DNA of 40,336 nt from Fidelibacterota bacterium (lineage in GTDB: Bacteria > Pseudomonadota > Alphaproteobacteria > Rhodospirillales > Rhodospirillaceae), in NCBI GenBank assembly GCA_947481595.1, contig CANKHC010000005.1, positions 1-40,336 on the forward strand, read 5' to 3'. Numbering within the stretch: the first letter of the stretch is position 1; each line of letters begins with the position of its first letter. Position numbers and translations under genes: made by a program. The notes under the pieces are model-generated. The model searched no databases and was not told where the DNA came from. It saw nothing but the letters and a program-made list of their open reading frames with translations. Positions 23,015-40,336 of this stretch are shown here, piece after piece.

Positions 23015-24747
23015 CTTACCCCGCCCGCGACCCGGGCCCGCAAATCAGCGGCGATCGTCTCTATCAACTTGGCCGGCGTCGGTTCGGTGCGGCGATAGAT
23101 CCGCATCGCCGGATACCAGGGGCTGGTGTCACTGTCGGCAAACCAATGCCAAAGGCCGGTCGCATTGTGCGCCGGCACGATGTTCCACACCGGGATGTTC
23201 AACGCCCCGGCCAGGTGCACGGTGGTGTTGCTGACGGAGATCACCAGATCCATGGCGGCGACTTGCGCCGCGACGCCGTCCATGTCGCCGGCGAAGTCGA
23301 CCTCGGGATCGGTGAACAACGACACGCCGGAGTTCTTCTGCATTTCGGCGATCTCAGCTGGGTCGGCGCCATACTGGAGAGTGACGAAGACGACACCCGG
23401 GACGTTGAGCAAGGGGACGAAGTCCGCCAAGGCCAGCGTCTTATCCTTACCAAGCGCGGAGCGATGACTGGCCCAGGAAAGTCCGATCACGTATGTCCCG
23501 GCGGCTGCATATCTTTGGCGCAGCGCCGCAGCTCGTACCGGGTCGGCTTTGAGGTAGCCACGGTGCGGCGTGAACTTTTCCGGCGCAGCGCGCAGCAAAC
23601 CGCCGAGATCACCGCCGGCGATCTGTACCTCAGCGTCGACGGCGACAGGACAGGCACGCGCTGGGTTTGTGCGCGGGATAATCGTGAGGTCGGGAAACGA
23701 TCGGCGAAAGAGAGTTTCCAGGCGCGGTGAACATTCGACGGTGATCCGCGCTGCAATGCGCGCAAGGTCACTGAGCATGCCCGCCTGTAGGATTTCTTCG
23801 CCGAGGCCAAGTTCTGTCCAGACCAAAATAGCCTTGTTTTGCAACGATTCGCCGTGCCACACGGGCTGCGGAAACCGGCCGTGCGGGTCGTGCTTCAAGC
23901 CCTCGACCTCGAAGCGCCGGCGGTAGGCCTGCCAGGCTTCGGGCAAACGGCGCGCCAGGAACAAGGCCGTGGTCTTGTGGCCAAGGGCGCGGAGGTATCG
24001 CGGATTGGCCGCGAGGGCCTCGTCGAAGAGGCGAGTGGCTTCATCCAAGCGTCGCGCGAAGACCGCGAGCACGCCGAGATTGTCGAGCGCCTCGGCGTAG
24101 CCTGGGCGCAAATCGAGCGCGGTGCGGAGGGCTGCGGTGGCTGCCTCGGGATCTCTGGCTTTCAAGACCGCGCCCAGCCCGTTGTGGGCTTCGGGCAATG
24201 CGGGGTTCAAAGCTATCGCCTCGCGAAACGCCAGCGCAGCGCCGGCGGAATCGCCCACGCGACCGCGCACGAGACCGAGATTGCATCGGTATGCTGCTTG
24301 CCGGGGTGCTAGGCTCACGGCTTGGGTCAAAGCGCTTTGCGCCTCTGCCAGTTTGCCTTGGGCCAGCAGCACAAGACCTAAGTCATTGTGGACCTCTGGC
24401 GACCGCGGCAGATGGGTCAACGCCAGGCGCAGGCAATCCTCGGCGCGCTGCGCGTGGCCATACGCTTGCAGCAGCGCCGCCCAGCCCAGCCAGGCTTCGG
24501 TGTACGTCGGTTCGTCTTGGACAGCGGTGCGGAGTTCGTTTTGGGCGTCGTCGCTGCGTCCCTGCTCCTGGAAGATGCGCGCGAGCAGCACGCGTGCCGC
24601 ACCCCGCCGTGAAGGCTGAGCCAGCGCGGCCCGAACAAGGGTTTCAGCCGCGCCGAATTGCTGCGATGCCACGAGTGCCGCGGCGCGGTCGAGGTCGGTG
24701 GCCGCTTCTTGTCCTCCCCCCACCTCCTGTCCTCCCCCACTGTCCAT
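23011..24747 (-). CDS. TPR-glycosyltransferase
   Basis: ATG 24747 (MDSGGGQEVGGGQEAATD) overlaps the gspJ stop. TPRs, then TELGLGEEILQAGM, LSWASHRS, VTLQYGAD, SNTTVHLAGALNIPVWN, SPWYPA. Confidence 0.86.
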   Translation of the reverse strand: MDSGGGQEVGGGQEAATDLDRAAALVASQQFGAAETLVRAALAQPSRRGAARVLLARIFQEQGRSDDAQNELRTAVQDEPTYTEAWLGWAALLQAYGHAQRAEDCLRLALTHLPRSPEVHNDLGLVLLAQGKLAEAQSALTQAVSLAPRQAAYRCNLGLVRGRVGDSAGAALAFREAIALNPALPEAHNGLGAVLKARDPEAATAALRTALDLRPGYAEALDNLGVLAVFARRLDEATRLFDEALAANPRYLRALGHKTTALFLARRLPEAWQAYRRRFEVEGLKHDPHGRFPQPVWHGESLQNKAILVWTELGLGEEILQAGMLSDLARIAARITVECSPRLETLFRRSFPDLTIIPRTNPARACPVAVDAEVQIAGGDLGGLLRAAPEKFTPHRGYLKADPVRAAALRQRYAAAGTYVIGLSWASHRSALGKDKTLALADFVPLLNVPGVVFVTLQYGADPAEIAEMQKNSGVSLFTDPEVDFAGDMDGVAAQVAAMDLVISVSNTTVHLAGALNIPVWNIVPAHNATGLWHWFADSDTSPWYPAMRIYRRTEPTPAKLIETIAADLRARVAGGVR

Positions 24748-25358
24748 CACTTCGGGGACATGTTCGCGAAGGGCGAGTCTTCCAGGCGGGTGACGCGGTC
24801 GTGAGGGCCCGAGACGGCGGCGATGAGCGGCGAGGTGGCGGTGCCGATATCGATCCAGATCAGCCACGGGGTCTGCGAGGTGCTTGCTTGGGGCGGCCAC
24901 GAGGTCTGCCAGGCGCCGTTGATGTCACGGTATTTGAAGGACGACTCGTTGCCGGGCCAGCGTCCGATTTCGGTTTTGGCACGCCCCGGCTCTTCATATG
25001 TCAGCACGGTTTGATTGGCGCTGCTGTCGTAGTCCAGCGTCATCGTGAACGGCGTCGGCGCGCCGGCCGGAGACAGCAGCGGCCGCAGGGTCTGGCCGGT
25101 CATCGTCCGCGGCTGGCCCCGGAACTGATTGGGGTTGTCCTTGTAGTCCGGCAGAATCCCGCGCAATGGATCGACAGGAACGTTCTGGCTGATGACGACC
25201 GTCTGCAAGTCGGCGATGGTGTTGTTCACCGACAGCCGCGTGCCCAGCACCATGCTGAACCCTTGCATCAAGACCGCCGCCATGAGGCTTGAGATCACCA
25301 TCACAACGATCATCTCAAACAGGGTGAAGCCTCGCGACGACGTGTTCAAGGTGCTCAT
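24747..25358 (-). CDS. gspJ: T2SS minor pseudopilin GspJ
   Basis: Prepilin motif RGFTLFEMIVVMVISSLMAAVL; position after gspG-H-I. ATG 25358 overlaps the gspI stop (ATGA). Confidence 0.83.
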   Translation of the reverse strand: MSTLNTSSRGFTLFEMIVVMVISSLMAAVLMQGFSMVLGTRLSVNNTIADLQTVVISQNVPVDPLRGILPDYKDNPNQFRGQPRTMTGQTLRPLLSPAGAPTPFTMTLDYDSSANQTVLTYEEPGRAKTEIGRWPGNESSFKYRDINGAWQTSWPPQASTSQTPWLIWIDIGTATSPLIAAVSGPHDRVTRLEDSPFANMSPK

Positions 25359-25852
25359 GGCTTGGTCATCCCCGGCAGGATGTTGGCGTTGATGCGCCGA
25401 TAGCCCACTTTGCGCATGTCGAAGGCAAACCACTCGCCGGCACGATCGTTGCGAACGACCGAAACCTTGACGTTGTAGAATCCGATCCCGAAAGCCGCGA
25501 GGCCGGTGCCCGGACGGATCGCCGTATTGGGTGGAATAAGCGCCTGGCTTTCCCAACGGATGTTGAGGTTGCCGATCTGCTCGCCTCCGTTGGGCTCCTC
25601 CAACGGATTGAGCGGCTCGAGCAGCTCGATAATGGACTGCTGGGCGAGATTGCGGGCATTGGAGTCGCCGGCGCGGTTGAGACCGACGACCATCTGCGAG
25701 ATGAACGTAATGATCGGTATGAGCGCTATGCCGACGACGGCGACGGCAACGATGGCTTCCAGCAGCGTGAAGCCGCGGCTGGCATACCGGGCTAAACTGG
25801 TCAGGCGCGCGCGCGCGAGGCGCGCCTTCACTCTGCGAGCTTCACGGCGCAT
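25355..25852 (-). CDS. gspI: T2SS minor pseudopilin GspI
   Basis: Prepilin motif RGFTLLEAIVAVAVVGIAL; cluster position. Start 25852 (MRREARR) assigned tentatively. Confidence 0.8.
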   Translation of the reverse strand: MRREARRVKARLARARLTSLARYASRGFTLLEAIVAVAVVGIALIPIITFISQMVVGLNRAGDSNARNLAQQSIIELLEPLNPLEEPNGGEQIGNLNIRWESQALIPPNTAIRPGTGLAAFGIGFYNVKVSVVRNDRAGEWFAFDMRKVGYRRINANILPGMTKP

Positions 25853-26382
25853 GTCGGCGCTTTCAGGTCGTAAGCGTAGTGGGCTTGCCCGACCGCGACC
25901 TCGATCTTGCCGCCCGAGCAATAGCCGGAAGCCTGATAGACGATGGGCTCGACCACGGTCAGGATCCAGTCCTCGGGCAACACGAGTTTGGCCTCGACGG
26001 CATCGACCGGCACCAGCGTCTTGAGCTGGCCGGGTTGGAGAAACAGGATATCTTTGAAGGGCTCGTCATCCTCGCCGGGGAGAATGGGCTTGGCATCGAG
26101 CTCGCGGGGATAACTGCCGGCGAGGATTGTCGGCCGCCCCTGCTTGAAGGCGGTATAGGCCAGACCATTGAGTTCGTTTTCGAAGCTGTCGCGGCTGAGG
26201 GTAAAGGCCAGCCTGTCCTGAACGATGGCAAACTGCGGCAGCGCCACCGCCGCCAGCATCCCAACAAGCGCAAGGACGACAAGGACTTCGAGCAGCGTAA
26301 AGCCGCGGGTACAGCCCACCTTAGGGCTTGGCCTGCTGCTGCGCTCTGGGCAGGATTCCAACATCGGCGTTATTACCTTCAC
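25828..26382 (-). CDS. gspH: T2SS minor pseudopilin GspH
   Basis: Prepilin motif RGFTLLEVLVVLALVGMLAAVALP; cluster position between gspG and gspI. Confidence 0.83.
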   Translation of the reverse strand: MKVITPMLESCPERSSRPSPKVGCTRGFTLLEVLVVLALVGMLAAVALPQFAIVQDRLAFTLSRDSFENELNGLAYTAFKQGRPTILAGSYPRELDAKPILPGEDDEPFKDILFLQPGQLKTLVPVDAVEAKLVLPEDWILTVVEPIVYQASGYCSGGKIEVAVGQAHYAYDLKAPTCAVKLAE

Positions 26383-26836
26383 CGCCAGGCTCTCCGTCGG
26401 CGCCTAGACTATAGAGCGCGATGGCCGAGTCGCTTTCCTGGACGTAGACGTAAGCATTGCCCCACGGGTCCAACGGAACTTCTTCGGCGAGATAAGGGCC
26501 GTGCCAGCGCCGCGCCAGACGCTCGTCGCGCGGCGGCTTGTTGAGCAGATCGAGACCTTCTTCCTTGGTGGGGAAGCGGCCGACGTCGAGGCGCATGGTT
26601 TCGAGCGAAGTCTTGAGCATGCGGGCTTGAGTATTGGCGGCGGAGACCTTCGACGTATCGACGCGTGCGAGCAGCTGCGGTCCGACCAATCCGGCCAAGA
26701 GGCCCATGATGACCAGCACGACGAGCATTTCGAGCAGCGTGAACCCGGCATGGCAAGCGCGCCTTGCTTGGCCTGCGTACTTGGCACGCGTCGCGGCGGG
26801 TTCCCGTTGGGAGATGATGAACACAGGAGCGCACAT
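26321..26836 (-). CDS. gspG: T2SS major pseudopilin GspG
   Basis: GFTLLEMLVVLVIMGLLAGLVGPQLL plus GspG signatures RFPTKEEGLDLL, WHGPYL and PLDPWGNAYVYV. Confidence 0.92.
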   Translation of the reverse strand: MCAPVFIISQREPAATRAKYAGQARRACHAGFTLLEMLVVLVIMGLLAGLVGPQLLARVDTSKVSAANTQARMLKTSLETMRLDVGRFPTKEEGLDLLNKPPRDERLARRWHGPYLAEEVPLDPWGNAYVYVQESDSAIALYSLGADGEPGGEGNNADVGILPRAQQQAKP

Positions 26837-26852: not shown

Positions 26853-28064
26853 TTACAGAGCGACTTGGTTGATGCTGGTGATGGCTAACATAATCGCGGC
26901 GACAATGCCACCGACCACGATCCCGATGAACAGGATCGCCGCCGGCTCGAGCAGGATCAGGAACTGTTTCATGCGCTGGCGGCCAGTGTCGTCGTACAGC
27001 TTGGCAAGCGATCGCAGCATTTCATCGAGTTGTCCGGACTCCTCGCCGACCTGCACCAGACTGACGGCGGTATCGTTGAAAGCGCGCTGTTCGGCCATGG
27101 CCGCCGACAACGACTTGCCGGCCCGCACCATCTTGGTGACCTGATCGAGGCGTACGCGCAGGCTGGGCAGGGACACGGAATCACGGGCAAGATCGAGAGC
27201 TCTAATCAGGTCAACGCCATTGGAGAACATCGTGCCTAGCATGAAAGCCCAACGCGCCAGGTCGGATTCCATCAGCCACGGACCGAGGAGCGGCAGGCGC
27301 GCGGCCCGCTCGCGCAATTTCGCCATGGTCTCCTTGTTGCGCAGCGCCGACACAATCAGCGCGACAATGCCCACGACCGACAGGAAAACGATGAGCCGAT
27401 GCGCATTGAGAAAGATGCCGGTGTTGAGCACGACCGCGGAGATCCACGGCAACGGCGCTTTCGACTGCGCCAACATCGACTGGAAGCGTGGCACGACGAC
27501 GATGAAAATGAACAACACCGCCGTGATGCCCGCTCCGAGCAGCACGGCAGGATACGTCAGAGCGTTGCGGATATCCTGACGGACCTGCTGCTCGTAGGAC
27601 ATCTGCGTGGTGGCATCCGTCAGGGCCTCGCCAAGCCGGCCGATGGCCTCGCCGGCGGCGGCGAGCTGACCGACATAGCCCGGCAGCATCGGCAGTGAAA
27701 TCGGCAATGAGGTGGTGAAAGCCTGGCCCGCGCGCAGGCGCCGCTCGAGGTCGGCGAACCCTTTGGAGATGTCGGGATGCAGCTGCTGCTGTTTGAGGGT
27801 TTCGATGGCGCGCACCATCGGTACACCCGAGGTCAAAAGCAGGGAGAGCTGCTTGAGAGCCAGGACGATTTCCTGGGTACTCGGCTTGCGCTGGAAAAGG
27901 ACTCTCGAGCCCTGTTGGGCGGCCTTGGCCGGTAGGACGGAGAGCGGCGCTAGACCTTGAGCTTCAATGGCTCGAAGCGCGTGGCGCTCGCTGCCTGCGA
28001 CAATATTGCCTTTGACGACATGGCCGCCGTTATCAAGAGCCTGATAGTCGAAGCTGCTGGCCAT
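26853..28064 (-). CDS. gspF: T2SS inner-membrane platform protein GspF
   Basis: FDYQALDNGGHVVKG N-terminus; LKQLSLLLTSGVPMVRAIETL; duplicated GspF domain with VGEESGQLDEML and C-terminal EPAAILFIGIVVGGIVAAIMLAI. Confidence 0.93.
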   Translation of the reverse strand: MASSFDYQALDNGGHVVKGNIVAGSERHALRAIEAQGLAPLSVLPAKAAQQGSRVLFQRKPSTQEIVLALKQLSLLLTSGVPMVRAIETLKQQQLHPDISKGFADLERRLRAGQAFTTSLPISLPMLPGYVGQLAAAGEAIGRLGEALTDATTQMSYEQQVRQDIRNALTYPAVLLGAGITAVLFIFIVVVPRFQSMLAQSKAPLPWISAVVLNTGIFLNAHRLIVFLSVVGIVALIVSALRNKETMAKLRERAARLPLLGPWLMESDLARWAFMLGTMFSNGVDLIRALDLARDSVSLPSLRVRLDQVTKMVRAGKSLSAAMAEQRAFNDTAVSLVQVGEESGQLDEMLRSLAKLYDDTGRQRMKQFLILLEPAAILFIGIVVGGIVAAIMLAITSINQVAL

Positions 28065-28232
28065 CGCGGCGTTGGTTCATGCCTAGGGGGAAATGATGAT
28101 GCGGCGTTGATAATACCAGAAAGGCCGGCTCCCCACTTACGAATGTGTCATTCGCAAGCGGATCACGAGCCAATATCTCAAATTTTACAGGATGTTAGAG
28201 CGCATAAGAGGGCGATGGAGCGGGCAAAGAAA

Positions 28233-28260
28233 AAGGGGGGCTGGAAAACCAGCCCCCCTT
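28233..28260 (-). terminator. Strong rho-independent terminator of the 28285..29724 gene
   Basis: Perfect 12-bp stem AAGGGGGGCTGG-AAAA-CCAGCCCCCCTT. On the minus strand it is followed by TTTTTCTTTG. Confidence 0.9.
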
Positions 28261-28284
28261 CTCTATCGAAGTTAGACGCGAAGC

Positions 28285-29724
28285 TTACGGATCAGTCGTG
28301 AGCGAGCCGTTGCGGAAGCCCGACAGGTCGGTGAAGAGACCCGTGACGCTATTCCACAGCAGGTGCTGGACGTAGCCGTTGAAGCTGCCGGTCACGACGA
28401 CCTTGTAGGCAGCGCCGGTCGCGGCAGCGGTCGAGACCGCGGCTTCGATATCCGACGACATGACCTGCTTGGTCGCGCCAGCCGTCACCGTCGTGGTGAA
28501 GCTGCCGAGAGTCGCGCCAGTGCTGTCGTTCTTGATGGTCAGCGTCGCAACACCGTCAATGCTGCTGGTGTTGGCGATGCGGAGCAGCGAACGATACAGG
28601 GTGCTGCCCTGGCCGGCCGTCGGGAACAGACCATTGAGCTCGACGCTCAGGCCGCCGCGCGTGATCGACGCGAGGTTGCCAGAGAACGGCGAGACCGCGC
28701 GGACGATACCCGCAACGGTGGTCGGAGTGACGGTGGCCGTGCCGGTGCCGCTGGAAGCGGTGATACCAGTGGTGCCATCGAAGGTGACCGTGATGGCCGC
28801 CTTGTTCAAGCTGGCCGCCGGGACTTGGAAGGACACCGTACCGGAGACGAAGGCCGCCGGGGTAGCCGACAGACCCGCCAGCGGGATCGAGACGCTGGTC
28901 AGAGCCGCATCGGTGAGGGCGCTGTGAGCGATCTTCACTTCAACCGTGCCCGTGATCGAGATAACGGTCGAGAAGACGTTCGACAGATCCGTACCAACCG
29001 CACCGGTGGCCGAGAAGCTGATCGTGCCGAGGGTGGCGGTCGCCGACGAGGTGGTGAACTTCGAGAACACCGGAGTGGAGTTGTTATCGACCGTCAGAGC
29101 CGAACCGGTCTGGACCGAGACGTCAGCAGCGCTCTTGCTGGTGATGATCGAGACAGAGGTGACGGTTTCGAAGGTCGTGCCGCCCGTAGCGTTGGTCACC
29201 AAGCCGTCGAGCTTGATCGACTGACCAGCAGCGGCGAGGGCGCCAGCGGTGGTGTAGGTGATGCCGAAGATCGCCATAGCGTCGGCGCGGCTCGGGTTGG
29301 TGCCGCCTTGCGCGGTGCAGCCCGTGATCAGCAGCTTATCCGGCAGAGCCTGGAGCGAGCAGCTGAGGACCGAGCTGACTGCCATCGTGCCGGCCGTGGA
29401 CTGGCTGTACACGACAACCGACGGCGTGCCGGTGAAGGTAGCGTTGGTCACGTTGACTTGGACGTTGAAGCCCGAGGTCAGGTTGGCAGCGAAGTCAACC
29501 AGGATCGCGTTCACGGTCGAGGTCGTGTTGGCGCCGAGGGAGACGCTATTGGCAAGGGTGGTCGTGCCGCTGAACACTTCAGTCGCCAGCGACTTCGCCG
29601 AGATGGTCGAGGTCGTGGTGACAGTCCAGTTGAAGGCCCGGAAGACCGCCGCATTGGCCTGCGACGCGAGGGCCGACGAGGCCATCAACGCACCGCCAAA
29701 GAGGTAGAGCGATTGTTTGTTCAT
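28285..29724 (-). CDS. Putative secreted/surface protein, Thr/Ser/Ala-rich, beta-sandwich-like; candidate T2SS and glycosylation substrate
   Basis: Sec-type signal peptide MNKQSLYLFGGALMASSALASQANA|AV; small-residue-rich alternating beta pattern; two cysteines; several N-x-S/T sites; own terminator; surrounded by T2SS and GT genes. Confidence 0.8.
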   Translation of the reverse strand: MNKQSLYLFGGALMASSALASQANAAVFRAFNWTVTTTSTISAKSLATEVFSGTTTLANSVSLGANTTSTVNAILVDFAANLTSGFNVQVNVTNATFTGTPSVVVYSQSTAGTMAVSSVLSCSLQALPDKLLITGCTAQGGTNPSRADAMAIFGITYTTAGALAAAGQSIKLDGLVTNATGGTTFETVTSVSIITSKSAADVSVQTGSALTVDNNSTPVFSKFTTSSATATLGTISFSATGAVGTDLSNVFSTVISITGTVEVKIAHSALTDAALTSVSIPLAGLSATPAAFVSGTVSFQVPAASLNKAAITVTFDGTTGITASSGTGTATVTPTTVAGIVRAVSPFSGNLASITRGGLSVELNGLFPTAGQGSTLYRSLLRIANTSSIDGVATLTIKNDSTGATLGSFTTTVTAGATKQVMSSDIEAAVSTAAATGAAYKVVVTGSFNGYVQHLLWNSVTGLFTDLSGFRNGSLTTDP

Positions 29725-29748
29725 ATTTGGAGGATCCCCTTAGAGGTT

Positions 29749-29760
29749 ACAGATATCTGT
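29749..29760. promoter_or_regulatory. Perfect 12-bp palindrome ACAGATATCTGT in the presumed 5' UTR
   Basis: Sequence equals its own reverse complement; about 25 bp upstream of the ATG at 29724. Confidence 0.4.
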
Positions 29761-29816
29761 TAACAAAGCCGTGTCTGCGCACAGGCAAGCACAGCTGCGC
29801 CCGTCAGCGCAGGTGC

Positions 29817-29845
29817 ATATCACCCCGACTACTTTGCAAAGTCAA
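29817..29845 (-). promoter_or_regulatory. Candidate sigma70-type promoter for the 28285..29724 gene
   Basis: Minus strand TTGACT (29845-29840), 17-bp spacer, TGATAT (29822-29817). Good -35, weak -10. Confidence 0.35.
29831..29842. promoter_or_regulatory. Perfect 12-bp palindrome ACTTTGCAAAGT overlapping the candidate -35
   Basis: Sequence equals its own reverse complement; overlaps TTGACT by 3 bp. Confidence 0.45.
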
Positions 29846-30028
29846 GCCCATCCTTCCGCGACTTTAAGGAGGTAAGCCTTTGAAGATGGCCTATTTTAAG
29901 GGCTTGTTAACTTTCCGAGAATTCCCCTGAAAATCTACCCCCGAGTCGAGGGGGGCCGGGTCTCCCGCAGTGCCGCATGCCATATATAGGGGAATTTAGG
30001 GGATTCCTTACAACTTATTGGACAGCGC

Positions 30029-31906
30029 TTATTCCCATTTCAGCGACGCCATGACGGAGGGGCGCCCCCCGATGGGTATAGTGAGCTTGCGCAAATCTCG
30101 CGCGATACGCGCAAGCCCATCTCTCCAAACGGTTTGCGGGGCGCTCTCGTCGTGGCCCGAGACCTTACGCACGATCCTGAGCGACGCGTACCAGGGGCTG
30201 TCGGTGCGTTGGCGGAACCAATACCAAAGGTCGGCGGGGCTTCCGAGCAACAACAGCCATGTCGGTATGCCCAAGCTGCCGGCGACGTGCACTGTGGTGT
30301 TCGAGGTGCTGATCACGAGGTCCATGGCCGCGACCTGGGCGAAGAACCCGTCCATATCCAACAGCGGATCGATCTCGCGGTCCTGCACCACGGTCACGCC
30401 AAGTGTTGCTTTCGCGGCCCTGAGGTCTTGCGTGCAATCGCCGTATTGCAGACTGACGAAGGTCACACCGGGCGTCACGAGGACGTCGCGCCACAACATC
30501 AGATCCGTTGTCTTGATTTCGCCGATCTCGGCGTTCGTGCTGCGCCAGGACAGGCCGACGATGAGATTGCCGGGCGCAATCTGTTCATAGCGCTGACGCA
30601 GGGTTTTGGTGCGGGCGGCGTCGGCTTTCAGATAGCGCGCACGCTCGGGAAAACGGGCGAGCGCGGGACGCAGGAATTCGCCAAGGCTTGCAACCGGAGA
30701 CTGGAAGTCGACGCCCTCGGGTGAGGTCGCAGCTTCAGCTTCATTGCGGTAGGGCGTCACGGTGGCGCCTGGAAACGCGCGCGCGAAGATCGGCGCCAAC
30801 CGGTCCTGGCATTCGATGATGCATCGTCCCGCCTGCGCGACGATGTCGGGAATCATGCTGCTGTAGAGGATTTGATCGCCGATCCCTTGTTCCGTCCAGA
30901 TCAGGATGGTTTTTCCGGCGAGGTCTTCGCCCCGCCAATACGGCGGCGGCACCGGGCGGCGCTTTTGATAGCTGTCGCCGGCGAAGCGCCGTTCGTAGCT
31001 GCGCCAGCCGGCGACAAAATCGCCCGCCGCGAAATAGGAATAGATGATCTTGTCGGCGCGCGGATCGAGACGAAAGGCTTTTTCCCGAAGCTCGACCGCG
31101 GCAGCGAACTGCTCGCGGTGCTCAAAGATCTTGGCCAATCCCTCATAGCCTTTGGCAAAGGCGGGATCGGCGCGGGTCGCTGCTTCGAAGGTCGATTGGG
31201 CCTGGTCGAGACGCCGCGCGTCGTAGAGCGCCGAGCCATAGTTGTAAAGGAAGCCCGGATCATCGGGCTGCGCGGCTAACGCTTGTTCGTGGACGGCGAG
31301 AGCTTCATCCAGCGCCTTCGCGCGGCGCAATAGCTCGCCCAGATTGCTCAGCCGTTCGGGTGTTGTCTCGAGGGCCAGCGCGGCGCGGGTGTGGCTGATG
31401 GCCGCCGCGAGCTTCGCCGGCTCGGAGGTGTAGTGCTCGGCGAGCGCCGCATGGGCTACGATCAGGTTCTGGCGCCCTTTGGCGTCGCCAGGCATCAGCG
31501 CATTGCGGTTTTGAAAAGCGGCGAGTGCCGCGGCGAGCGCGCCGTCCTGTTGGCGCAGCACACCGAGATTCAAATAGGCGTCGGCGTGACGGGGGTTGAG
31601 CTCAATCGCGTGTTCGTAGGCGGCGATTGCCCCTGGGTTGTCGCCCATGGCGGTCAACACCACGCCAAGATTGAACGACGCATCGGCCATGCGCGGCGCA
31701 CACTGCAACGCGCGTTCGAAATAGCGTTTGGCCTCGGCATTGTGCCCGCGCGCGGTCGCGATCGTGCCGAGGAGGTTGAGCGCGTTGGCGTTGCGCGGAT
31801 CGGCTTTCAGCACTTTGGTATAGAGCTTCTCGGCCTCATCGAGCCGGCCCGCTTGATGCAGCAGCACGGCGTCTTGCAGTTGGGCGAGGACCTTGGTGTC
31901 GGACAC
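30029..31906 (-). CDS. TPR-glycosyltransferase
   Basis: TPR array, then TEQGIGDQILYSSM, LSWRSTNAEIG, VSLQYGDC, SNTTVHVAGSLGIPTWL, SPWYAS. GTG start 6 bp after the upstream gene. Confidence 0.87.
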   Translation of the reverse strand: MSDTKVLAQLQDAVLLHQAGRLDEAEKLYTKVLKADPRNANALNLLGTIATARGHNAEAKRYFERALQCAPRMADASFNLGVVLTAMGDNPGAIAAYEHAIELNPRHADAYLNLGVLRQQDGALAAALAAFQNRNALMPGDAKGRQNLIVAHAALAEHYTSEPAKLAAAISHTRAALALETTPERLSNLGELLRRAKALDEALAVHEQALAAQPDDPGFLYNYGSALYDARRLDQAQSTFEAATRADPAFAKGYEGLAKIFEHREQFAAAVELREKAFRLDPRADKIIYSYFAAGDFVAGWRSYERRFAGDSYQKRRPVPPPYWRGEDLAGKTILIWTEQGIGDQILYSSMIPDIVAQAGRCIIECQDRLAPIFARAFPGATVTPYRNEAEAATSPEGVDFQSPVASLGEFLRPALARFPERARYLKADAARTKTLRQRYEQIAPGNLIVGLSWRSTNAEIGEIKTTDLMLWRDVLVTPGVTFVSLQYGDCTQDLRAAKATLGVTVVQDREIDPLLDMDGFFAQVAAMDLVISTSNTTVHVAGSLGIPTWLLLLGSPADLWYWFRQRTDSPWYASLRIVRKVSGHDESAPQTVWRDGLARIARDLRKLTIPIGGRPSVMASLKWE

Positions 31907-31912
31907 GGACGC

Positions 31913-33571
31913 TTACCCGCGCTTGGCGGCGAAAACCGCGAGATCGCGCGCGATTTCAGCGGTGATTCGGCGCCACCATTCGCCGCCCTCAGGCCGGCCG
32001 CCTTTGTGGAAAAGCCTCAGCGACGGATACCACGGACTGTCGCGGCGATCGAGGAACCAGTACCAGAGGTTCGCTCCGCCACTGTTGACCATCGCCCAGA
32101 CCGGCACGCTCTGGCTGCCGGCGACATGGACCGTGGTATTCGACGTGCTGATGACAAGATTCATTGCTGCCACCTGCGCGAAACAGTCGTCCATGCTTTT
32201 CATGGGATCAACCTCGGGATCGTGGAACACGTCCACGCCCAGGGCCGTTTTGACTTTAGCTAAGTCGGCGCGGCACTCGCCGTACTGCAGATTGACGAAG
32301 GTCACGCCCGGCGTGAGCAGAATATCGCGCCAGGTGGCGAGGTCGGCGCTTTTTTTCTCGCCGAACGTTTCGTTCTTGCTGCGCCACGAGAGGCCGACCA
32401 CCAGGTTACCCGGAGCCAGCGCACGGTAGCGCGCGCGAAGCCGCGCGGTCTTCTCGGCATCGGCTTTCATGTAGCCCTGATGGCGCGGGAACTGCGCGAA
32501 GTCACGGCGGAAGAACTGCCCCAAGCTCGCCACCGAGATCTGTCGGTCAAACGCATCAGCCGGCGTGCTGCGCGCGCCTTGCGCGACATAGCGTTTGACC
32601 TCGGCCTTGGGGAACGAGCGCGCAAAAACCGGCACCATGCGGGGCGAGCATTCGATGATGACGCTGCCCGCGGCAGCGACGGCATCATTCATCATGTTGG
32701 AATAGAGCACTTCGTCGCCCAATCCCTGTTCGGTCCAGACCAGCAATCTTTTATCGCTGATGTCTTCACCGCTCCAATACGGCGGCGGCGGGCTAAACCG
32801 CGCCACGGTCTCACGCTCCGCGAAGAAGCGGCTTTCATAGTCCGCCCAGCCGGTGGCGAGCTCGCCCAGGCGCAACGCCATCAACGATCTCTTGAAACGC
32901 AACTCGCCTGGCCCGGGCTGCAAAGCGATGCCCTTATCGACCCAGGATAAGGCCTCGTGGTAGGCGGCGCGATCGAAGTGCACCGCGCCGATGTTGCCGT
33001 AAGCCTCGGCGAGGGTGGGGTTGATCTTGAGGGCTTCCTGGTAGGCCCTGATCGCCGCTTCGTCGTCGGTGATCTTCAGCGCGTTGCCCAGGCCGAGCCA
33101 CGCCTCCGCCATGTTAGGGGCAAGGGCCAGCGCGCGTTTGTTGGCGCCGATCGATCCCTCCAGGTCGTGCATTTCAAAAAGCACCTTGCCTAGGTTGAAC
33201 TGCGCTTCGGCAAGGTCCGGGCGCAACTTGAGAGCCTCTTCATAGGCGTCGCGCGCATCCTCCTTACGGTCGGCTTTGCGGTACGCAGCGCCCAGGTTGA
33301 CGAGGATCGTGGGTTCCTTGGGAGCGCGGCGCTGCGCGCGCTTGAGAAATTTGACCGCTTCTTCGGCATCACCCGATTGCAGGGCCACGACGCCCAGCAA
33401 ATTCAAGCCGTCGGCATTGTTCGGGTCGAGTGCAAGCACGCGCCGATAGCAATCTTCCGCCAGCTTGAGGTGCCCCTGGGTATGGTGGGAGCGCCCCATG
33501 GCCAGGGTCGATGCGATGACCTCGGCCCGCTGCGTCGCCGCCCCGGCGGGCTGAGTGGTTTTTCGCGTCAT
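31913..33571 (-). CDS. TPR-glycosyltransferase
   Basis: TPR array, then TEQGLGDEVLYSNM, LSWRSKNETFG, VNLQYGEC, SNTTVHVAGSQSVPVWA, SPWYPS. ATG 33571 (MTRKTTQ) is the likely start. Confidence 0.87.
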   Translation of the reverse strand: MTRKTTQPAGAATQRAEVIASTLAMGRSHHTQGHLKLAEDCYRRVLALDPNNADGLNLLGVVALQSGDAEEAVKFLKRAQRRAPKEPTILVNLGAAYRKADRKEDARDAYEEALKLRPDLAEAQFNLGKVLFEMHDLEGSIGANKRALALAPNMAEAWLGLGNALKITDDEAAIRAYQEALKINPTLAEAYGNIGAVHFDRAAYHEALSWVDKGIALQPGPGELRFKRSLMALRLGELATGWADYESRFFAERETVARFSPPPPYWSGEDISDKRLLVWTEQGLGDEVLYSNMMNDAVAAAGSVIIECSPRMVPVFARSFPKAEVKRYVAQGARSTPADAFDRQISVASLGQFFRRDFAQFPRHQGYMKADAEKTARLRARYRALAPGNLVVGLSWRSKNETFGEKKSADLATWRDILLTPGVTFVNLQYGECRADLAKVKTALGVDVFHDPEVDPMKSMDDCFAQVAAMNLVISTSNTTVHVAGSQSVPVWAMVNSGGANLWYWFLDRRDSPWYPSLRLFHKGGRPEGGEWWRRITAEIARDLAVFAAKRG

Positions 33572-33614
33572 GCTTTGAAGTTCATGCTGTGTTATCTGCC
33601 GTTCGTGACCTAAC

Positions 33615-35579
33615 GTGTTCGACGTTCGCGTGCACGCTGTCAAGACGCGAGACGATAAGGATGAGACGACTTTGACGAGATTTGCCGAAGCCTATGCCGC
33701 GCACCGGGCGGGACGACTCGCGGAAGCCGAGACCGGCTACCGCGCGGTGCTCAGATTATCGCCCACACACGCCGACGCTTGGCATTTGCTGGGCGTGGTG
33801 GCGCAGCAGCAGGGTCGCGCCGCAGACGCCGTCATGCATATCAAAAAGGCGCTTTCGCTGCGGGAGCCCGACGCCGCCACGCTCACCAATTTGGGAATTT
33901 CCCTAGCGGCGCTGGGGCGCAACGACGAGGCCGCCGCGGCCTTCGAACAGGCGCTGACGCGAGATCCCAACGCGAGCGCGACGCTGTTTGCCCTGGGCAA
34001 TACCTTGCGCGCGCTGGGCCGTCTGGCGGACGCCGAACGGCGCTATCGCCAAGCGATTGCGCAGGCCCCAGCCCAAGCCGCCTTTCACAACAATCTCGGC
34101 GCCGCGCTGAAAGACCTGGGACGTCTGGCGGAAGCCGAAGCCGCAACGCGCGAGGCTATCCGTCTCGATCCTGCCCACGCCCGCGCGCAGTACAACTTGG
34201 GCGTCCTCCTGCAAGAGAACAAGCGGCGCGAAGAGGCCGCGGCCGCCTTCCGCCGGGCCATCGCCCTTGCCCCTGATTTCGCCGAAGCCCACACCAACCT
34301 TGGCGGCGTCCTGCAAGACCTGGGCGACATCGAGAATGCGATCGCCCACTGTCGGCGGGCCATCGCCCTCAACCCCAAGGACGCGGCGGCGTTCAACAAC
34401 CTCGGCGCAAACTTACGCGTCGCCGGCGACCATGACGGCGCCATGCGCGCCTATCAACAAGCCCTTGAACTCAATCCCGACCTACTCGCCGCCAAGCATA
34501 ACGAGGGTGTGGCGTTGGAGGCCGCAGGACGAACCGACGAAGCGCTCAGCCGCTACCAGGAGGCGCGCGGCGCGGGCCTCGATTTCGCCGAGGCAGAACT
34601 CCGCACGGCTCTGCTTCAGCTTGCGCGCGGCAATTATGCCGAGGGTTGGAAGGGCTATGACGCGCGCTGGAACTGCCGTCCTGCACCGATGCGGCGCAAA
34701 TTTCCCTACGCGCCTTGGCAGGGGAGCGGCGAAGGCGGCGTTTTGGTGTGGGGCGAGCAAGGTGTCGGAGACGAAATCCTTTACGCCTCGATGCTTCCTG
34801 ATTTGATCGACCGCGTCGAGAGCACCATGGTCGAAGTTGAGCAGCGCCTCGTGCCGCTGTTCGCGCGCTCTTTTCCCGGCGCGACAGTCGTTGCAAGGAC
34901 CAATCCGCCGAACCCCGCAACCGCGTGCGGCGATCTGCGCTGGCACACGGCGATCGCAGACCTTGGCCGCTGGCTGCGTCCTGATACCGCCAGTTTCCCC
35001 GGGCGGGCGTCATACCTCACCGCCGATCCGGATCGCAGCTCAGCGTTGCGCCGCACGCTCGAACGCTTGCCTGGGACGGGCCCCGTCGTCGGTCTGTCCT
35101 GGATCAGCCGAAACGTCCGGATCGGACAGTACAAAAGCTTGGCGCTAGCGGATTTCGCACCGCTGTTCCAAATCCCCGGCGTGCGGTTTGTCGATCTTCA
35201 GTATGGCGACACCACGGTTGAACGCGCCGCCGTCCAGGCGTCTTTAGGGGCCGCCCCTCATCACGTCGACAATCTCGATTTGTATGACGATATCGATGGT
35301 GCCGCGGCGCTTGCGGCAGCTTGCGATTTTGTCATCTCGGTCAGCAGCGTGACCGCCCATCTAGCCGCGGCCGTCGGACGGCCGACCTGGGTGCTGGTGC
35401 CTGCGGGGGCAGGCAAACTGTGGTATTGGATGCAAGGTCAGGACCACACGCCATGGTACCCCGGCGCAAGGATCTTTCGTCAGGAGCGGCCTGGAGACTG
35501 GGCTGAGGTTATAAAACGTCTGACGGATGCTTTCCTCGTAACCCAGGGCGGCCGTAAGCCGTTACAGCAAATTAACTAA
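33615..35579 (+). CDS. TPR-glycosyltransferase (true start possibly TTG 33672)
   Basis: TPR array, then GEQGVGDEILYASM, LSWISRNVRIG, VDLQYGDT, SSVTAHLAAAVGRPTWVLVP, TPWYPG. N-terminus parallels the 20813..23014 product. Confidence 0.86.
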   Translation: MFDVRVHAVKTRDDKDETTLTRFAEAYAAHRAGRLAEAETGYRAVLRLSPTHADAWHLLGVVAQQQGRAADAVMHIKKALSLREPDAATLTNLGISLAALGRNDEAAAAFEQALTRDPNASATLFALGNTLRALGRLADAERRYRQAIAQAPAQAAFHNNLGAALKDLGRLAEAEAATREAIRLDPAHARAQYNLGVLLQENKRREEAAAAFRRAIALAPDFAEAHTNLGGVLQDLGDIENAIAHCRRAIALNPKDAAAFNNLGANLRVAGDHDGAMRAYQQALELNPDLLAAKHNEGVALEAAGRTDEALSRYQEARGAGLDFAEAELRTALLQLARGNYAEGWKGYDARWNCRPAPMRRKFPYAPWQGSGEGGVLVWGEQGVGDEILYASMLPDLIDRVESTMVEVEQRLVPLFARSFPGATVVARTNPPNPATACGDLRWHTAIADLGRWLRPDTASFPGRASYLTADPDRSSALRRTLERLPGTGPVVGLSWISRNVRIGQYKSLALADFAPLFQIPGVRFVDLQYGDTTVERAAVQASLGAAPHHVDNLDLYDDIDGAAALAAACDFVISVSSVTAHLAAAVGRPTWVLVPAGAGKLWYWMQGQDHTPWYPGARIFRQERPGDWAEVIKRLTDAFLVTQGGRKPLQQIN

Positions 35580-35592: not shown

Positions 35593-36873
35593 ATGAACTA
35601 CCGTCCGGCCGTACGTGCATGGCCTTCGGGCCGGCAAATCAAGACCGCCACGGTGCCTCATCGACATTGCGTCAGGGGTACGTCATTCCGGTTGGGGGGC
35701 GGCAACATTTCTGGTCCTGAGATGACGTTGGCGGCGGCAAAGAACTGTGACGAGCAAGGCCCATCTTTGGGTCGTCCGGGCTGGGGGTGTCCCCAGGCTC
35801 AGGGATTTATCCTGCCGCTAACGCTCTGGATGATCGCGATCATGGGCTTGCTCGCCTCCTCGCTCAATGTTTGGGTGGCGAACGCCGTTGCTAATGCAAC
35901 CGCTCTGGCGGGGCGTACCGAGCTTGAACTCGCGCAATCCAACCTGCGCAATGAGTTGGTCTATTTCTTGGCCGCGCATCCCTCCAGTTACCGTGGCCTC
36001 GAAGTCGGCCCCAGGATCGCCGCGGCCGGACCGCAAGACTTCGACGTGCTCATGGCTGGGCCACAGGATTCCGGGCGCACCATCAAGTTCGACGGCCGCC
36101 CTTATATCTCCGAGAGCCATCCGGACATGGTGGTCATGATCCAAGACGGCACCGGGCTGTTCAACCTCAACATCTCGACGCCCGCCAATCTGCGCCGTCT
36201 GCTGACCTCCTTCGACGTCAGCGAGACTTCGATCAACCGGATGATCGACACGCTGCTCGACTACTTGGACGACGACGACCTGACGCGCCTTGCCGGCGCC
36301 GAAAGCACGCAATACGCGCGCCAAGGCTTGCAAGCGCCCGTCAACGGCTTTCTCGTGTCGCCCTATGAAGCCCAGCGTGTGATGGGATGGGAGCGGATCA
36401 AGGGGCTGTGGGAAGCCGATATGAAGAGACCGCTGCTCACCACCTGCCAAAGTGCGGGCTTCAATCCCAACAACGCCCCACCGAGCGCGCTGATCGCCAA
36501 CATCCGCGGCATGACCCGCGACAGGGCCGACCTCGTGGTCAGTTACCGCGCCGACAAACCCTTCCGCAACATGCGCGAGTTCGGCGCGGCGGCCGATCTT
36601 CTCATCACTGATGAACCGTTTTTCTATACATTCATCCCGGGTGCGTGCTCTGTCGTCGATCTGATCGACAAGCGCTCGGGCCAGCATGTGCGCTTTTCGC
36701 TGACTCTCGAACCGATCTCTCAGAACCGTCCATGGCGAGTAGACTATGCAACGAGAATCCCTGATCAATACCGCGACGCGTTGGATCACCTCGACTCAGA
36801 AGCGGTTTTCCCAACCCCCGAAGGTATTGATCTACCGCCCGGGCCAGACGGATCAAAAGCCAAACCCCAATAG
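35593..36873 (+). CDS. gspK: T2SS minor pseudopilin GspK (start may be ATG 35722)
   Basis: Prepilin-like AQGFILPLTLWMIAIMGLLASSLNVWV; IQDGTGLFNLN, DYLDDDD, FNPNNAPPSALIANIRGMTRDRADLVVSYR typical of GspK. Confidence 0.87.
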   Translation: MNYRPAVRAWPSGRQIKTATVPHRHCVRGTSFRLGGGNISGPEMTLAAAKNCDEQGPSLGRPGWGCPQAQGFILPLTLWMIAIMGLLASSLNVWVANAVANATALAGRTELELAQSNLRNELVYFLAAHPSSYRGLEVGPRIAAAGPQDFDVLMAGPQDSGRTIKFDGRPYISESHPDMVVMIQDGTGLFNLNISTPANLRRLLTSFDVSETSINRMIDTLLDYLDDDDLTRLAGAESTQYARQGLQAPVNGFLVSPYEAQRVMGWERIKGLWEADMKRPLLTTCQSAGFNPNNAPPSALIANIRGMTRDRADLVVSYRADKPFRNMREFGAAADLLITDEPFFYTFIPGACSVVDLIDKRSGQHVRFSLTLEPISQNRPWRVDYATRIPDQYRDALDHLDSEAVFPTPEGIDLPPGPDGSKAKPQ

Positions 36874-37864
36874 CCGGGTTTTTTGGGTTTTAAGCCGCCG
36901 CGCCACGCGCCAAACCGTTTTCACGTTTCCGGCAGAACTGCCGGACGCGAAGCGCAAAGCTCTGCTCGCCCTGCAAGTGCGCCGCTGGGCGCCTTGGCCC
37001 AACGTCAAATTCAATGCCTACTGGTCGGCCAACCGCGCGACGGTCTATGCCTGGAATGACGACGACGTCAAAGCCGCGATCGCCGAAGCCGGGCTCTCCG
37101 AACGCCGCTGCATCGTCATTCCTGAAACCTTCATCCGCCGGCCGCTGCAGGACGGCGTGCGCCTGGTCGCAGCACTCGACGGCTTTGAAGGCCAGGTCTG
37201 GCAGAACGGCTTCATCGCCTTCAGCCGCTGGTGGCCGCGCCAGCCGAACCCGTCCGAATGGGACATGTTTGTGCGCTCAGCGGGCCTGCCGCTCGAACAA
37301 TTCGCCGGCCGGATCCCCGAACTCCAGGACGCTCCGGTCCTCGAAAGCCCTTGGACCCGTCAAGAGAACGCCCTGGCCGGCGCCTGGGCGATGCTCGAGG
37401 ATCCGCGCACCGCCGCCGCCGCCGCCGCCATCGTTGCAGCCCCTTTCGTCTATCTCGCCGTCCAGTACACAACGCTTGCCGTAGCAAACGCGAGCATCAA
37501 CAGCCGCATCGAGCGGCTTTCGGTCGAGACCCAGGGCGTGCGCAAACAGCGCAGCGAGGCCTTAGCCAACCTCGACGAGATCGATGACTACTTGGGCCTC
37601 GAGGTCTATCCCAGCCAGTTCGAGATCCTCACCGTCTCGCTAGGCCTCCTGCAGCCCATGAACGCCAAGATCGCCGAATGGACCTACGACGTCGGCACGC
37701 TGTCCTTCACACTGCGTCCCACACAGGAGTTGGAACCGACGTTCTTGATCACGGCATTTGAAAAGATCGGTCTCTTCACCAACGTGACCGCCACGCGCAC
37801 GGGACAGGAAGGTCTGCTCCGTGTGCGTATGGACGTTCAGCCGCGCCTACCGAAGCGCGCGTGA
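36746..37864 (+). CDS. gspL: T2SS GspL-like protein (start uncertain; possibly TTG 36827)
   Basis: Position between gspK and gspM. Actin-like N-terminal region, one TM segment (AAAAAIVAAPFVYLAVQYTTL), PilN-like C-terminal domain. Confidence 0.75.
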   Translation: MQRESLINTATRWITSTQKRFSQPPKVLIYRPGQTDQKPNPNSRVFWVLSRRATRQTVFTFPAELPDAKRKALLALQVRRWAPWPNVKFNAYWSANRATVYAWNDDDVKAAIAEAGLSERRCIVIPETFIRRPLQDGVRLVAALDGFEGQVWQNGFIAFSRWWPRQPNPSEWDMFVRSAGLPLEQFAGRIPELQDAPVLESPWTRQENALAGAWAMLEDPRTAAAAAAIVAAPFVYLAVQYTTLAVANASINSRIERLSVETQGVRKQRSEALANLDEIDDYLGLEVYPSQFEILTVSLGLLQPMNAKIAEWTYDVGTLSFTLRPTQELEPTFLITAFEKIGLFTNVTATRTGQEGLLRVRMDVQPRLPKRA

Positions 37865-37877
37865 GGATGGACCAGCA

Positions 37878-38507
37878 ATGAACATTCCTCAGTTTCTTCA
37901 GCCAGCCGTCACTTATCTCCGCAAGCATGTCAGCCAAGAGACGATGAGCAACGAGCGCCTCATCGTGATGGCGGGTGCGGCGGCCGGACTTTTCCTGATG
38001 ATCATGTTCATCGGCTTCTGGAGTCTCAACCAGAGCATGGCGAAAAAGGTCACGACATCGAAGACCAACCTCGCGCGCTTGCAGGCCGAGGTCACCGGCG
38101 ATGCCTGGCCCAAGCGCGTGGAGACAACACAAGGCCTGAAAACCCAACTGACCGTGCGTCTGTGGGATGCCCCGACACCGGGATTGGCGCAGGCCAGCTT
38201 CGAGACCTGGCTGAATCAGAGTTTCGGCCGCTACGGCGCGAAGCCACAGCAAATCCTCATCACGCGCAGCCCGGCGGTCGGGCGCGACGGCAACCCCACG
38301 CCGACGCTCGCCGGATTGCAGCGTATGACGGCGAAAGTGCTGGCCCCTTTCGATCAAACCGCGCTTCAGGTCTTGGCCGACGCCGCCGAATATCAAAAGA
38401 TCCTGGTTGTCGACCGCTTGATCCTGCGCTCGGGTATCAACAGCCGCATGGAAATGGATATCTCGACCTTCATCCGCGCCGAAGCGAGCGCCCAGGCAAA
38501 ACCGTGA
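37878..38507 (+). CDS. gspM: T2SS GspM-like protein
   Basis: Short cytosolic N-terminus, one TM (LIVMAGAAAGLFLMIMFIGFWSL), periplasmic domain; position after gspL. Confidence 0.7.
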   Translation: MNIPQFLQPAVTYLRKHVSQETMSNERLIVMAGAAAGLFLMIMFIGFWSLNQSMAKKVTTSKTNLARLQAEVTGDAWPKRVETTQGLKTQLTVRLWDAPTPGLAQASFETWLNQSFGRYGAKPQQILITRSPAVGRDGNPTPTLAGLQRMTAKVLAPFDQTALQVLADAAEYQKILVVDRLILRSGINSRMEMDISTFIRAEASAQAKP

Positions 38508-38995
38508 TGCAGCGCATAACCGAAACCATCCGCCTGTATCTGCCGCTGTCGCGCCCCTATGCGCCGCACATCGCCGGCGTGCTGGCCTTGGGCGTGATGG
38601 GCTGGCTCGCGGGTTATTTCCAGGCGACGCGCGCGGTGGCCAACCCGAACCTCGCCGAGACATGGTCGGTGCCAATCTGGGCGCCTTTCCGCGCCGGACC
38701 CGAGCGCATGTTGTTCGCCAGCGCCGATGTTTGGGATGGCGCCAAGAAAGTCGCGACCACCGCCAAGGCGGATACGACGGTCAAGCCGTGGCAGTTCATC
38801 GGCACGGTACGGACCGGCAAGAGCTATGCTGCCGTGATCCTTATCGGCGACACCGGCAAAGTGCAGCGCGCCGCTGAAGGTGACACACTGCCAAACGGCG
38901 AGAAGATCGTCGCGGTCGGCAACGGCGTACTGCAAATCGATGCCTCGGGCACCCCCCAGGAAATCAAATTATTCGATCCTGAAAAGAAGAAATAA
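38507..38995 (+). CDS. T2SS GspC/GspN-like protein (HR-domain-like, no PDZ)
   Basis: One TM, then WQFIGTVRTGKSYAAVILIGDTGKVQRAAEGDTLPNGEKIVAVGNGVLQI. ATG overlaps the gspM stop (TGATG). Confidence 0.65.
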   Translation: MQRITETIRLYLPLSRPYAPHIAGVLALGVMGWLAGYFQATRAVANPNLAETWSVPIWAPFRAGPERMLFASADVWDGAKKVATTAKADTTVKPWQFIGTVRTGKSYAAVILIGDTGKVQRAAEGDTLPNGEKIVAVGNGVLQIDASGTPQEIKLFDPEKKK

Positions 38996-38998
38996 ATC

Positions 38999-40336
38999 AT
39001 GCTGAGACTTACCCCTCGCCGTTCTTCCCGGTCCTTGCGCGCCAAACCTTTGTTTGGCTGCATGACTGCAACCGGCCTTGTCCTGGTGCTCGCGAGCTGC
39101 ACCAACATCGATCCCCAGCTGCCCCCGGTTTTAGAAGTGCCAAAGGCAAACTTGAGCAGCGGCGAACTGTTGGTCGCCGGAGACGAGAGTAAGCGCACGG
39201 CCCTTGGATCCGCCCCGGGCCTATCGCCGCCGGTCGGACGCACCCTGGCCGAGCCGTTTTCGAGCGCGACGCCGCCAAAGCTCACGGGTGAAAACATCGG
39301 TGTGAATTTCGAAGGCCTCCGTCTGCCCGCCTTCGTCAACACCGTATTCGGTGAATTGCTCAAGGTTTCGTTCGTCATCGACGACCCGGTGGTCAAGCGC
39401 GATCAGCTCATCACCCTGCGCACCGCCGAACCGATTCCGCCCGATCAGTTCTACCGTCTTGTGACCGAAGTGCTCGCCACCTACGGCCTGCAGGTGGTCT
39501 ACCAGAACAACGTCTACCGCATTGTCGAAGGTGCGGCTGTGCGTCCCGACGTGCCGACGATCGTCCGTTCGCGCTCGCTGTCCAGCGTGCCGGGCGACCA
39601 GCGGCCAATCTTCTTCTTCACGCCGATTCACAATGTGCAAAGCGCCTCCATGCAGGGCTGGCTCGAACTTGCCTTGCGTGATCGTGTGCGCTTCCAGCCC
39701 GTGGGCAACGCCAATGGCCTCCTGCTCATGGGCCGGCGCGAGGACATCAACGCCGCCCTGGAAACCATCGAGATCCTCGACCAGCCGAACATGGCCGGCA
39801 ACCGCAGCCTGAAGATCATGCCAGCCTTTTGGAGCGCCGGGCGCCTGGCCGAGCAGCTGGTGCAGGTGATGACGGCCGAGGGTTACAGCATCGGCGTCGG
39901 TACGAGCAGCGCGGTTGCCGTCCGTATGGTGCCGATCGAGGCCTTGAACACCGTCATTGTCTTTTCGACCAGCGAGCAGACCCTGCAACATCTCCTGGAG
40001 TGGGCCACCGAACTCGATCAGCCGTCGCAGTCCATCAACGCCCAGAGCATGTTCTACTACCAGGTGCAAAACGCCTCGGCGGCAAAGGTCGCCGACCTGG
40101 TCGGCTCGGTCCTGGGCGGCGGCGTGGGCGGCATAACCGGCAATGAATCACCCGCTCAGCGTCAACAAATACAGCAAGGCCAGGCAAATAGCCCCGCCGC
40201 CGCAGCTATGCAAACGACGACCCCCGCCGCCCGGCAGAAGCTCACCGTCGACGAAACCCGCAACGCCATCATCTTTCAAGGGTCGGCCGAGGAATGGGCG
40301 CAGTTCCGCGGGCTCATGGTGCAGATGGACCGCCCG
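38999..40336 (+). CDS. gspD: T2SS secretin GspD, N-terminal part, truncated by window end; lipobox-bearing
   Basis: ATG 38999 opens to the window end: MLRLTPRRSS...GLVLVLASC(lipobox)TNIDPQLPPVLEV...VNFEGLRLPAFVNTVFGELLKVSFVIDDPV...LLMGRREDINAALETIEILDQP...VDETRNAIIFQGSAEEW. N0/N1-type secretin domains. Absent from the supplied ORF list. Confidence 0.88.
   Translation, partial: MLRLTPRRSSRSLRAKPLFGCMTATGLVLVLASCTNIDPQLPPVLEVPKANLSSGELLVAGDESKRTALGSAPGLSPPVGRTLAEPFSSATPPKLTGENIGVNFEGLRLPAFVNTVFGELLKVSFVIDDPVVKRDQLITLRTAEPIPPDQFYRLVTEVLATYGLQVVYQNNVYRIVEGAAVRPDVPTIVRSRSLSSVPGDQRPIFFFTPIHNVQSASMQGWLELALRDRVRFQPVGNANGLLLMGRREDINAALETIEILDQPNMAGNRSLKIMPAFWSAGRLAEQLVQVMTAEGYSIGVGTSSAVAVRMVPIEALNTVIVFSTSEQTLQHLLEWATELDQPSQSINAQSMFYYQVQNASAAKVADLVGSVLGGGVGGITGNESPAQRQQIQQGQANSPAAAAMQTTTPAARQKLTVDETRNAIIFQGSAEEWAQFRGLMVQMDRP

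Follow-up and report, generated by a model that had tools for sequence, protein, structure and literature searches.

The P479 gene and the surrounding T2SS cluster

The window (the whole 40,336-nt stretch of DNA that was analysed) carries, on its minus strand, an ORF with boundaries at exactly 28285–29724, which begins with an ATG at 29724 and encodes a 479-aa product that we label P479. The ORF picked out by the sequence-only reading is therefore real, and so is the signal peptide that this reading had described: residues 1–26 (29647–29724, minus strand; MNKQSLYLFGGALMASSALASQANA|A) are of the Sec/SPI type without a lipobox, as judged by eye and from an alignment of 19 orthologues in which the pattern is kept. 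The Thr/Ser-rich composition is confirmed as well, Ser and Thr together making up 30% of the mature protein (24–31% across all 19 orthologues) as against 5–19% in the remaining genes of the window. The net charge is approximately neutral, and a pair of cysteines is present in 18 of 19 orthologues. Searches of NCBIfam, and of PDB sequences with P479 alone (phmmer), gave no match, and Pfam gave a single weak match under the cut-off (MdcG, E 0.048), with no enzyme family among the Pfam and NCBIfam matches; this agrees with the earlier statement that no named family or catalytic motif can be recognised. An AlphaFold model of the full-length protein consists mostly of strands, at low confidence (pLDDT 55). 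Foldseek matches of the whole chain, to adhesin and biofilm proteins (BSP, antigen I/II, SdrD, RbmA), did not exceed a TM-score of about 0.3, and we disregarded them because of the low pLDDT of the model. Ser/Thr-rich beta proteins are also common outside S-layers.

P479 sits where the sequence-only reading had placed it, between gspF and two genes for TPR-glycosyltransferases (TPR-GTs), the order on the minus strand being TPR-GT (31913–33643), TPR-GT (30029–31906), P479, gspF (26853–28064), gspG, gspH, gspI and gspJ. GspF, the inner-membrane platform protein of the type II secretion system (T2SS), was recognised by PF00482 (E 1.4e-47) and by TIGR02120 (E 7e-79, under its cut-off); among the pseudopilin genes gspG to gspJ (24747–26836, minus strand), gspG matches TIGR01710 (E 1.8e-48), while the others were assigned by a prepilin motif and weak family matches. 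The plus strand carries gspK, gspL, gspM, gspC and gspD (35593–40336), of which gspK and gspD were assigned by family matches and the other three by position and conserved order; gspD is truncated by the contig end at the right edge of the window. A further TPR-GT gene lies between the minus-strand block and gspK–D. To the left, past additional TPR-GT genes, the same cluster contains gspE, encoding the ATPase (10271–12004, plus strand), and a prepilin peptidase gene (8557–9057), both read from their translations. Altogether there are at least seven TPR-GT genes in the T2SS cluster (12027–35579). The TPR repeats of the two genes upstream of P479 (30029–33643, minus strand) were identified by Pfam; TPRs are clear, while the GT domain gave a weak match (PF01075, E 0.002) and only in the neighbour at 33615–35579. 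Positions 3–2153, where the window begins, encode an autotransporter-like passenger with repeats, cut by the contig end.

When 73 genomes from the same family were compared, full-length P479 was found in 36 and the T2SS gene gspG in 38. In two of the latter (G010 and G345) the sole gspG reaches the model end (position 133–134), unlike the cluster type, which ends at 131–132; setting these aside leaves 36 genomes with cluster-type gspG, and a comparison of the two lists showed them to be the same 36 that carry P479. In 35 of the 36, covering eight genera, P479 and gspG lie at most about 3 kb apart on one contig, the exception being G368, a fragmented assembly that has the two genes on different contigs. 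Contig ends divide P479 itself in G013 and G020, where its 3' part is the piece adjoining gspG. P479 is flanked by a TPR-GT gene and gspF at every locus with enough flanking sequence, and the entire cluster order, including the two upstream TPR-GT genes, is repeated in seven named loci. Most genomes have exactly one P479, G020 having extra P479-like copies. TPR-GT matches number about 8–16 in most of the module-bearing genomes (see below) as against 0–5 in other family members. Orthologues of P479 share 29–62% identity while those of gspF share 53–85%, and such fast divergence would be in keeping with the pattern of exposed, surface-type proteins. A search with an alignment of eight close orthologues found as named relatives only freshwater or uncultured MAGs, one of them titled Rhodospirillaceae bacterium. 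The source MAG itself (2.84 Mb in 220 contigs, 84.8% complete) may contain some foreign contigs, given its contamination of 5.94%.

In a tree of rpoB, the genomes that carry the module form one clade, except for an odd row from G013, whose rpoB (C213:4121-8164) has a very long branch apart from its genus and probably lies on a misbinned contig. We therefore count the joint presence of module, P479 and T2SS as roughly one gain with few independent events, and the correlation over 36 genomes was not taken as that many independent events: the tree reduces it to one clade and the loss in G333. This genome gave no T2SS, P479 or TPR-GT matches although it falls within a genus in which all the others carry the system. 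It retains four detected modules, one of which (C37:51747-52079) is broken by two TAA stops, and as the sole informative loss it fits decay once the system has gone. At the same time, a G333 subtilase with a module pair appears intact, which shows that a module pair can persist without the T2SS system.

Upstream region, leader and terminator

P479 is separated from its neighbours by 304 bp before the gene (29725–30028) and 220 bp after it, while gspG–J, by contrast, are tightly packed. The long private upstream region remarked on earlier holds a conserved promoter-like sequence and a leader, and between orthologues the upstream regions are more similar than the P479 genes themselves. The promoter-like sequence, TTGACT-N17-TGATAT (29817–29845, minus strand), was found by aligning upstream regions and lies about 7 bp before a candidate structured 5' leader RNA (29725–29810, minus strand). 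The leader begins with a 5'-terminal hairpin, GCGCTGACGGGCGC, which is followed by a second hairpin of changing sequence, by CAGATATCTG, and by AAGGGGATCC near the start codon. Comparison of 28 upstream regions (27 of them distinct) found the promoter-like arrangement (TTGAC and any base, N17, a hexamer) in all 28, the hairpin GCGCTGACGGGCGC in all 28 with only single, G-U-compatible changes, and CAGATATCTG, in some cases altered or shortened, likewise in 28/28, with AAGGGGA[AT]CC right before the ATG. The second hairpin could not be reliably aligned by MAFFT; its sequences differ widely, yet all fold (mean z of -2.4 against dinucleotide shuffles), and it is this folding of unrelated sequences from distant orthologues that supports it. 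RNAalifold, applied to the eight closest leaders, found no base pair with both sides changed, since these leaders are nearly identical.

With a covariance model of the leader, 35 of the 36 genomes that have P479 gave a single match each, adjoining the P479 gene, and the 37 other family genomes gave none. With few exceptions the match coordinates stop at the start codon of P479 (in G020 the match is at the end of another contig), and the one P479 genome without a match, G334, is one in which the P479 match is itself incomplete. Rfam models run against the window gave no leader match at the gathering score and found only a tRNA. The P479 leader may thus represent a new RNA family, one that is clearly paired with a gene; as to its role, protection of the mRNA by the 5'-terminal hairpin, or self-regulation, seems likely. 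A CtrA-type palindrome, TTAA-N7-TTAA (29896–29910, plus strand), lies 86 bp upstream of the leader; it is the sole one in the window, where 0.05 would be expected by chance, and it is exact or near-exact in the aligned relatives, which hints that P479 may be under cell-cycle control.

Downstream of the gene, a 15-bp hairpin (28230–28263, minus strand; -32.3 kcal/mol, z -4.9) with a T-rich tract at its end corresponds to the strong terminator of the sequence-only reading. Seven relatives, too, have a hairpin with a G-run and then a T-tract downstream of P479. An automatic terminator scan did not pick up the P479 terminator, probably because the stem extends into the T-tract. Between the terminator and gspF, a ATGACACATTCNTAAGT motif (28135–28151, minus strand) is conserved in 8/8 aligned loci and is possibly a control site of the gspF operon. 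The effective number of codons (Nc) of P479, 31.2, is the lowest in the window, the next values being 34.8–36. Spacing, terminator and lowest Nc all fit a separately transcribed gene that, judged from its sequence, would be heavily expressed.

The C-terminal module and its relatives

What goes beyond the first reading is that the C-terminal part of P479, about 110 aa, is a shared module resembling the Anabaena sensory rhodopsin transducer (ASRT) and the ASRAH superfamily. In a search of the source genome these final residues, which are absent from Pfam as a family, matched many other sites; the module (residues 358–479; 28288–28653, minus strand) has 27 further copies in its own genome, making 28 copies in 13 proteins (P479 and 12 others). 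At least 11 of these 12 show an N-terminal hydrophobic stretch that resembles a signal peptide, the twelfth module protein (C121) lying outside that count; for C130 the stretch sits on an adjoining ORF, so that this gene may be frameshifted. In its own and in related genomes the module is fused to subtilase, trypsin-like and reprolysin-like proteases, to a MauG-type peroxidase, and to beta-helix, FG-GAP, sortilin/BNR and C-type lectin domains. Its position varies, being C-terminal in the proteases and N-terminal in the MauG protein. Among the complete ORFs of the loci fetched, 30 have one module, 27 have two, none has three and three have four. The single-module ORFs are the P479 orthologues and the divergent L098, whose second module falls under the stricter threshold yet was detected in another search. 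There is, then, a copy rule: always one module in P479, and two or four on other exported proteins. Outside the family, 289 genomes of the class and 349 of the phylum gave no module at E<=1e-4, each of these searches scoring just the top candidates from every genome.

Two four-module loci have features of their own. At L011 (2613–5635, minus strand), an exported protein, a catalytic-looking N-terminal ORF overlaps a four-module ORF at start/stop, possibly through an assembly frameshift. The protein at L010 (2768–5593, minus strand) has four N-terminal modules followed by a part of about 430 aa that matches no Pfam family.

A profile built from 19 modules and run against 177,635 PDB sequences had a single match at E<10, ASRT, at an E-value of only 0.04; DUF5719 matched the module weakly (E 5e-4). 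Modelled alone with AlphaFold, the P479 module yields eight strands (pLDDT 69, pTM 0.67), and the top 16 Foldseek matches of this model are all ASRT or Thermotoga TM1070 structures (1nc7 and 2ii7-2ii9; probability 0.99–1.00, target TM-score 0.50–0.71, E 0.002–0.03). Profile and fold, two independent methods, thus both point to one small family. Moreover, the only invariant column among the 19 modules, N385, ends the second predicted strand (residues 377–385), matching the near-invariant Asn that ends strand 2 in ASRAH. The strand-1 Trp of ASRAH, on the other hand, is missing at that place in 19/19 modules, and for this reason we class the module, on the model and the profile, as a remote relative of the ASRT/ASRAH sugar-binding beta-sandwich and not as an ASRAH member.

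The ASRAH superfamily consists of predicted sugar-binding beta-sandwiches, with secreted versions occurring as dyads or tetrads and an actinobacterial version adjoining a glycosyltransferase (PMC2739507). The module is like the published ASRT/TM1070 proteins in its eight-stranded beta-sandwich and its invariant Asn at the end of strand 2, and like the secreted dyads and tetrads in coming in twos and fours, although P479 itself has one (PMC2739507). It differs from ASRT/ASRAH in having neither the strand-1 Trp nor a His/Cys ligand signature, and in decorating a large set of exported proteins.

P479 as a presumed T2SS-linked coat protein

The sequence-only reading had proposed that P479 is the cluster's abundant secreted cargo. 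The context argues strongly for this: the synteny with gspF, co-inheritance with the T2SS, the lowest Nc, the dedicated leader, the gene's own terminator and the precedents set by known S-layer systems. We consider it fairly probable that P479 is a mass-produced subunit of an S-layer- or fibre-type coat to which this T2SS is dedicated, and we infer its abundance, its dependence on the T2SS and its location at the surface. Slr4, NpdA and Aeromonas VapA are three known proteobacterial S-layer proteins encoded next to T2SS genes (PMC7821379, PMC10765051). P479 shares with such proteins a Sec signal peptide without a lipobox, T2SS adjacency across genera, an all-beta chain (by a low-confidence model) and the lack of a catalytic motif. 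It fits Slr4, NpdA and VapA in size, signal peptide, beta content, linkage and lack of known domains, with codon bias, leader and terminator as further, indirect signs of mass production, and a coat-type cargo is the reading that we favour. Slr4 of Pseudoalteromonas is a beta-rich protein of 50–60 kDa with a Sec signal and without a Pfam or CDD domain, whose gene stands beside the T2SS operon in many species and for which dedicated T2SS export was proposed; it is marine and gammaproteobacterial, and the portion of the paper used for this comparison by description mentions neither glycosyltransferase genes nor a shared module (PMC7821379). In Paracidovorax and relatives the gene for NpdA adjoins a 12-gene gsp cluster and is kept there across genera; unlike P479 it belongs to Beta- and Gammaproteobacteria and, in the corresponding portion of that source, with no shared module described (again compared by description; PMC10765051). 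VapA is an S-layer subunit with a dedicated T2SS encoded beside its gene, as reviewed in two papers (PMC3658858, PMC10765051); compared by description, it differs in that neither a TPR-GT cluster nor a recurring module is known there.

If P479 is such a coat protein, it would cross the inner membrane via Sec, fold in the periplasm, where its conserved disulfide would form, and leave through the surrounding T2SS, carrying at its C-terminus a beta-sandwich of the sugar-binding type. The sharing of the module by the coat and by secreted proteases and other exported proteins suggests one principle of attachment or recognition, and probably one shared way of surface attachment. Attachment would most likely mean that the module binds either a glycan at the cell surface or the coat in its glycosylated form. 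That glycan could come from the cytoplasmic TPR-GTs encoded next to P479, perhaps through O-glycosylation of P479 ahead of its export. Glycan binding is favoured over a T2SS tag by the predicted fold, from which we also infer sugar binding by the module.

The module may instead be a type II sorting tag for export or surface retention, in the manner of the T9SS C-terminal domain (CTD), with P479 as the main tagged substrate and the sugar-binding fold as a matter of ancestry. This would explain why the module occurs on exported proteins of unrelated function, in changing position, and only in the clade that carries this T2SS, but we think it unlikely, as free position and one, two or four copies are unusual in sorting signals, the nearest relatives are predicted sugar binders that likewise come in twos and fours (PMC2739507), and G333 keeps its apparently intact module-pair subtilase with no T2SS. 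That P479 is a moderately expressed, ordinary adhesin or matrix protein rather than a coat, with the linkage marking a favourite substrate, seems more doubtful still: the whole-model Foldseek matches are indeed to adhesin and biofilm proteins, yet the model is weak and TM-scores that low mean little, while the codon bias, the leader and the terminator are in line with production in large amounts. We give even less credence to P479 being a dedicated accessory of the T2SS (a secreted cap, scaffold or assembly factor) and not bulk cargo. Its strict adjacency to gspF, full co-inheritance and presence as exactly one copy in most genomes could be read that way; against this stand the strongest codon bias, a conserved leader and a terminator of its own outside the gsp operon, divergence much faster than that of gspF, a module held in common with hydrolases, and the extra P479-like copies in G020.

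The further claim that P479 accepts the cluster's glycan is a weakly supported guess: Ser/Thr richness and adjacency to TPR-GT genes are both conserved, but the orthologues as a set show no excess of N-x-S/T sites. In P479 itself there are 11 such sites against 6.3 in shuffles (p 0.04), while in most of 18 orthologues the counts are not raised, and for that reason we dropped the idea of an N-glycan acceptor. Direct O-glycosylation of P479 by the TPR-GTs, in the cytoplasm and before Sec, has a modest chance of being right. The conserved 24–31% of Ser and Thr and the TPR-GT gene adjoining P479 at every locus with enough flank speak for it, as does the precedent of FlmG, the Caulobacter flagellin O-glycosyltransferase, which acts in the cytoplasm and combines TPRs with a C-terminal GT domain of the GT-B type (PMC7591256), like the neighbours of P479 (where the GT match is weak). 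Compared by description, however, one FlmG serves flagellins, while at least seven TPR-GTs surround this T2SS; besides the plain N-x-S/T counts, passage of a heavily glycosylated chain through Sec is not the norm, and the TPR-GTs could instead make a free polysaccharide or modify pseudopilins.

The T9SS CTD and GlyGly-CTERM are cases in which one domain is found on many exported enzymes and is tied to one secretion system. The module is like them in being common to many exported enzymes of one organism, but it has no transmembrane or sortase-like signature, it may be internal, N-terminal or C-terminal, and it occurs in twos or fours. We regard as tentative the proposal that this clade evolved a T2SS-linked form of surface display in which the module serves export or retention as a shared tag that either the T2SS or a coat glycan recognises; just as tentatively, such display, with a glycan built on the coat by the TPR-GTs, might be the T2SS counterpart of the T9SS CTD/A-LPS arrangement.

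The question of how the T2SS recognises its cargo has stood for a long time. In this clade a whole set of presumed cargo proteins has one recognisable module in common, and a single-module protein that resembles the main cargo is encoded in the cluster, which makes recognition and retention testable through one domain. P479 is a probable fourth lineage of T2SS-linked S-layer proteins, now tied to a TPR-glycosyltransferase cluster, and the ASRT/ASRAH fold would gain a new and large extracellular use.
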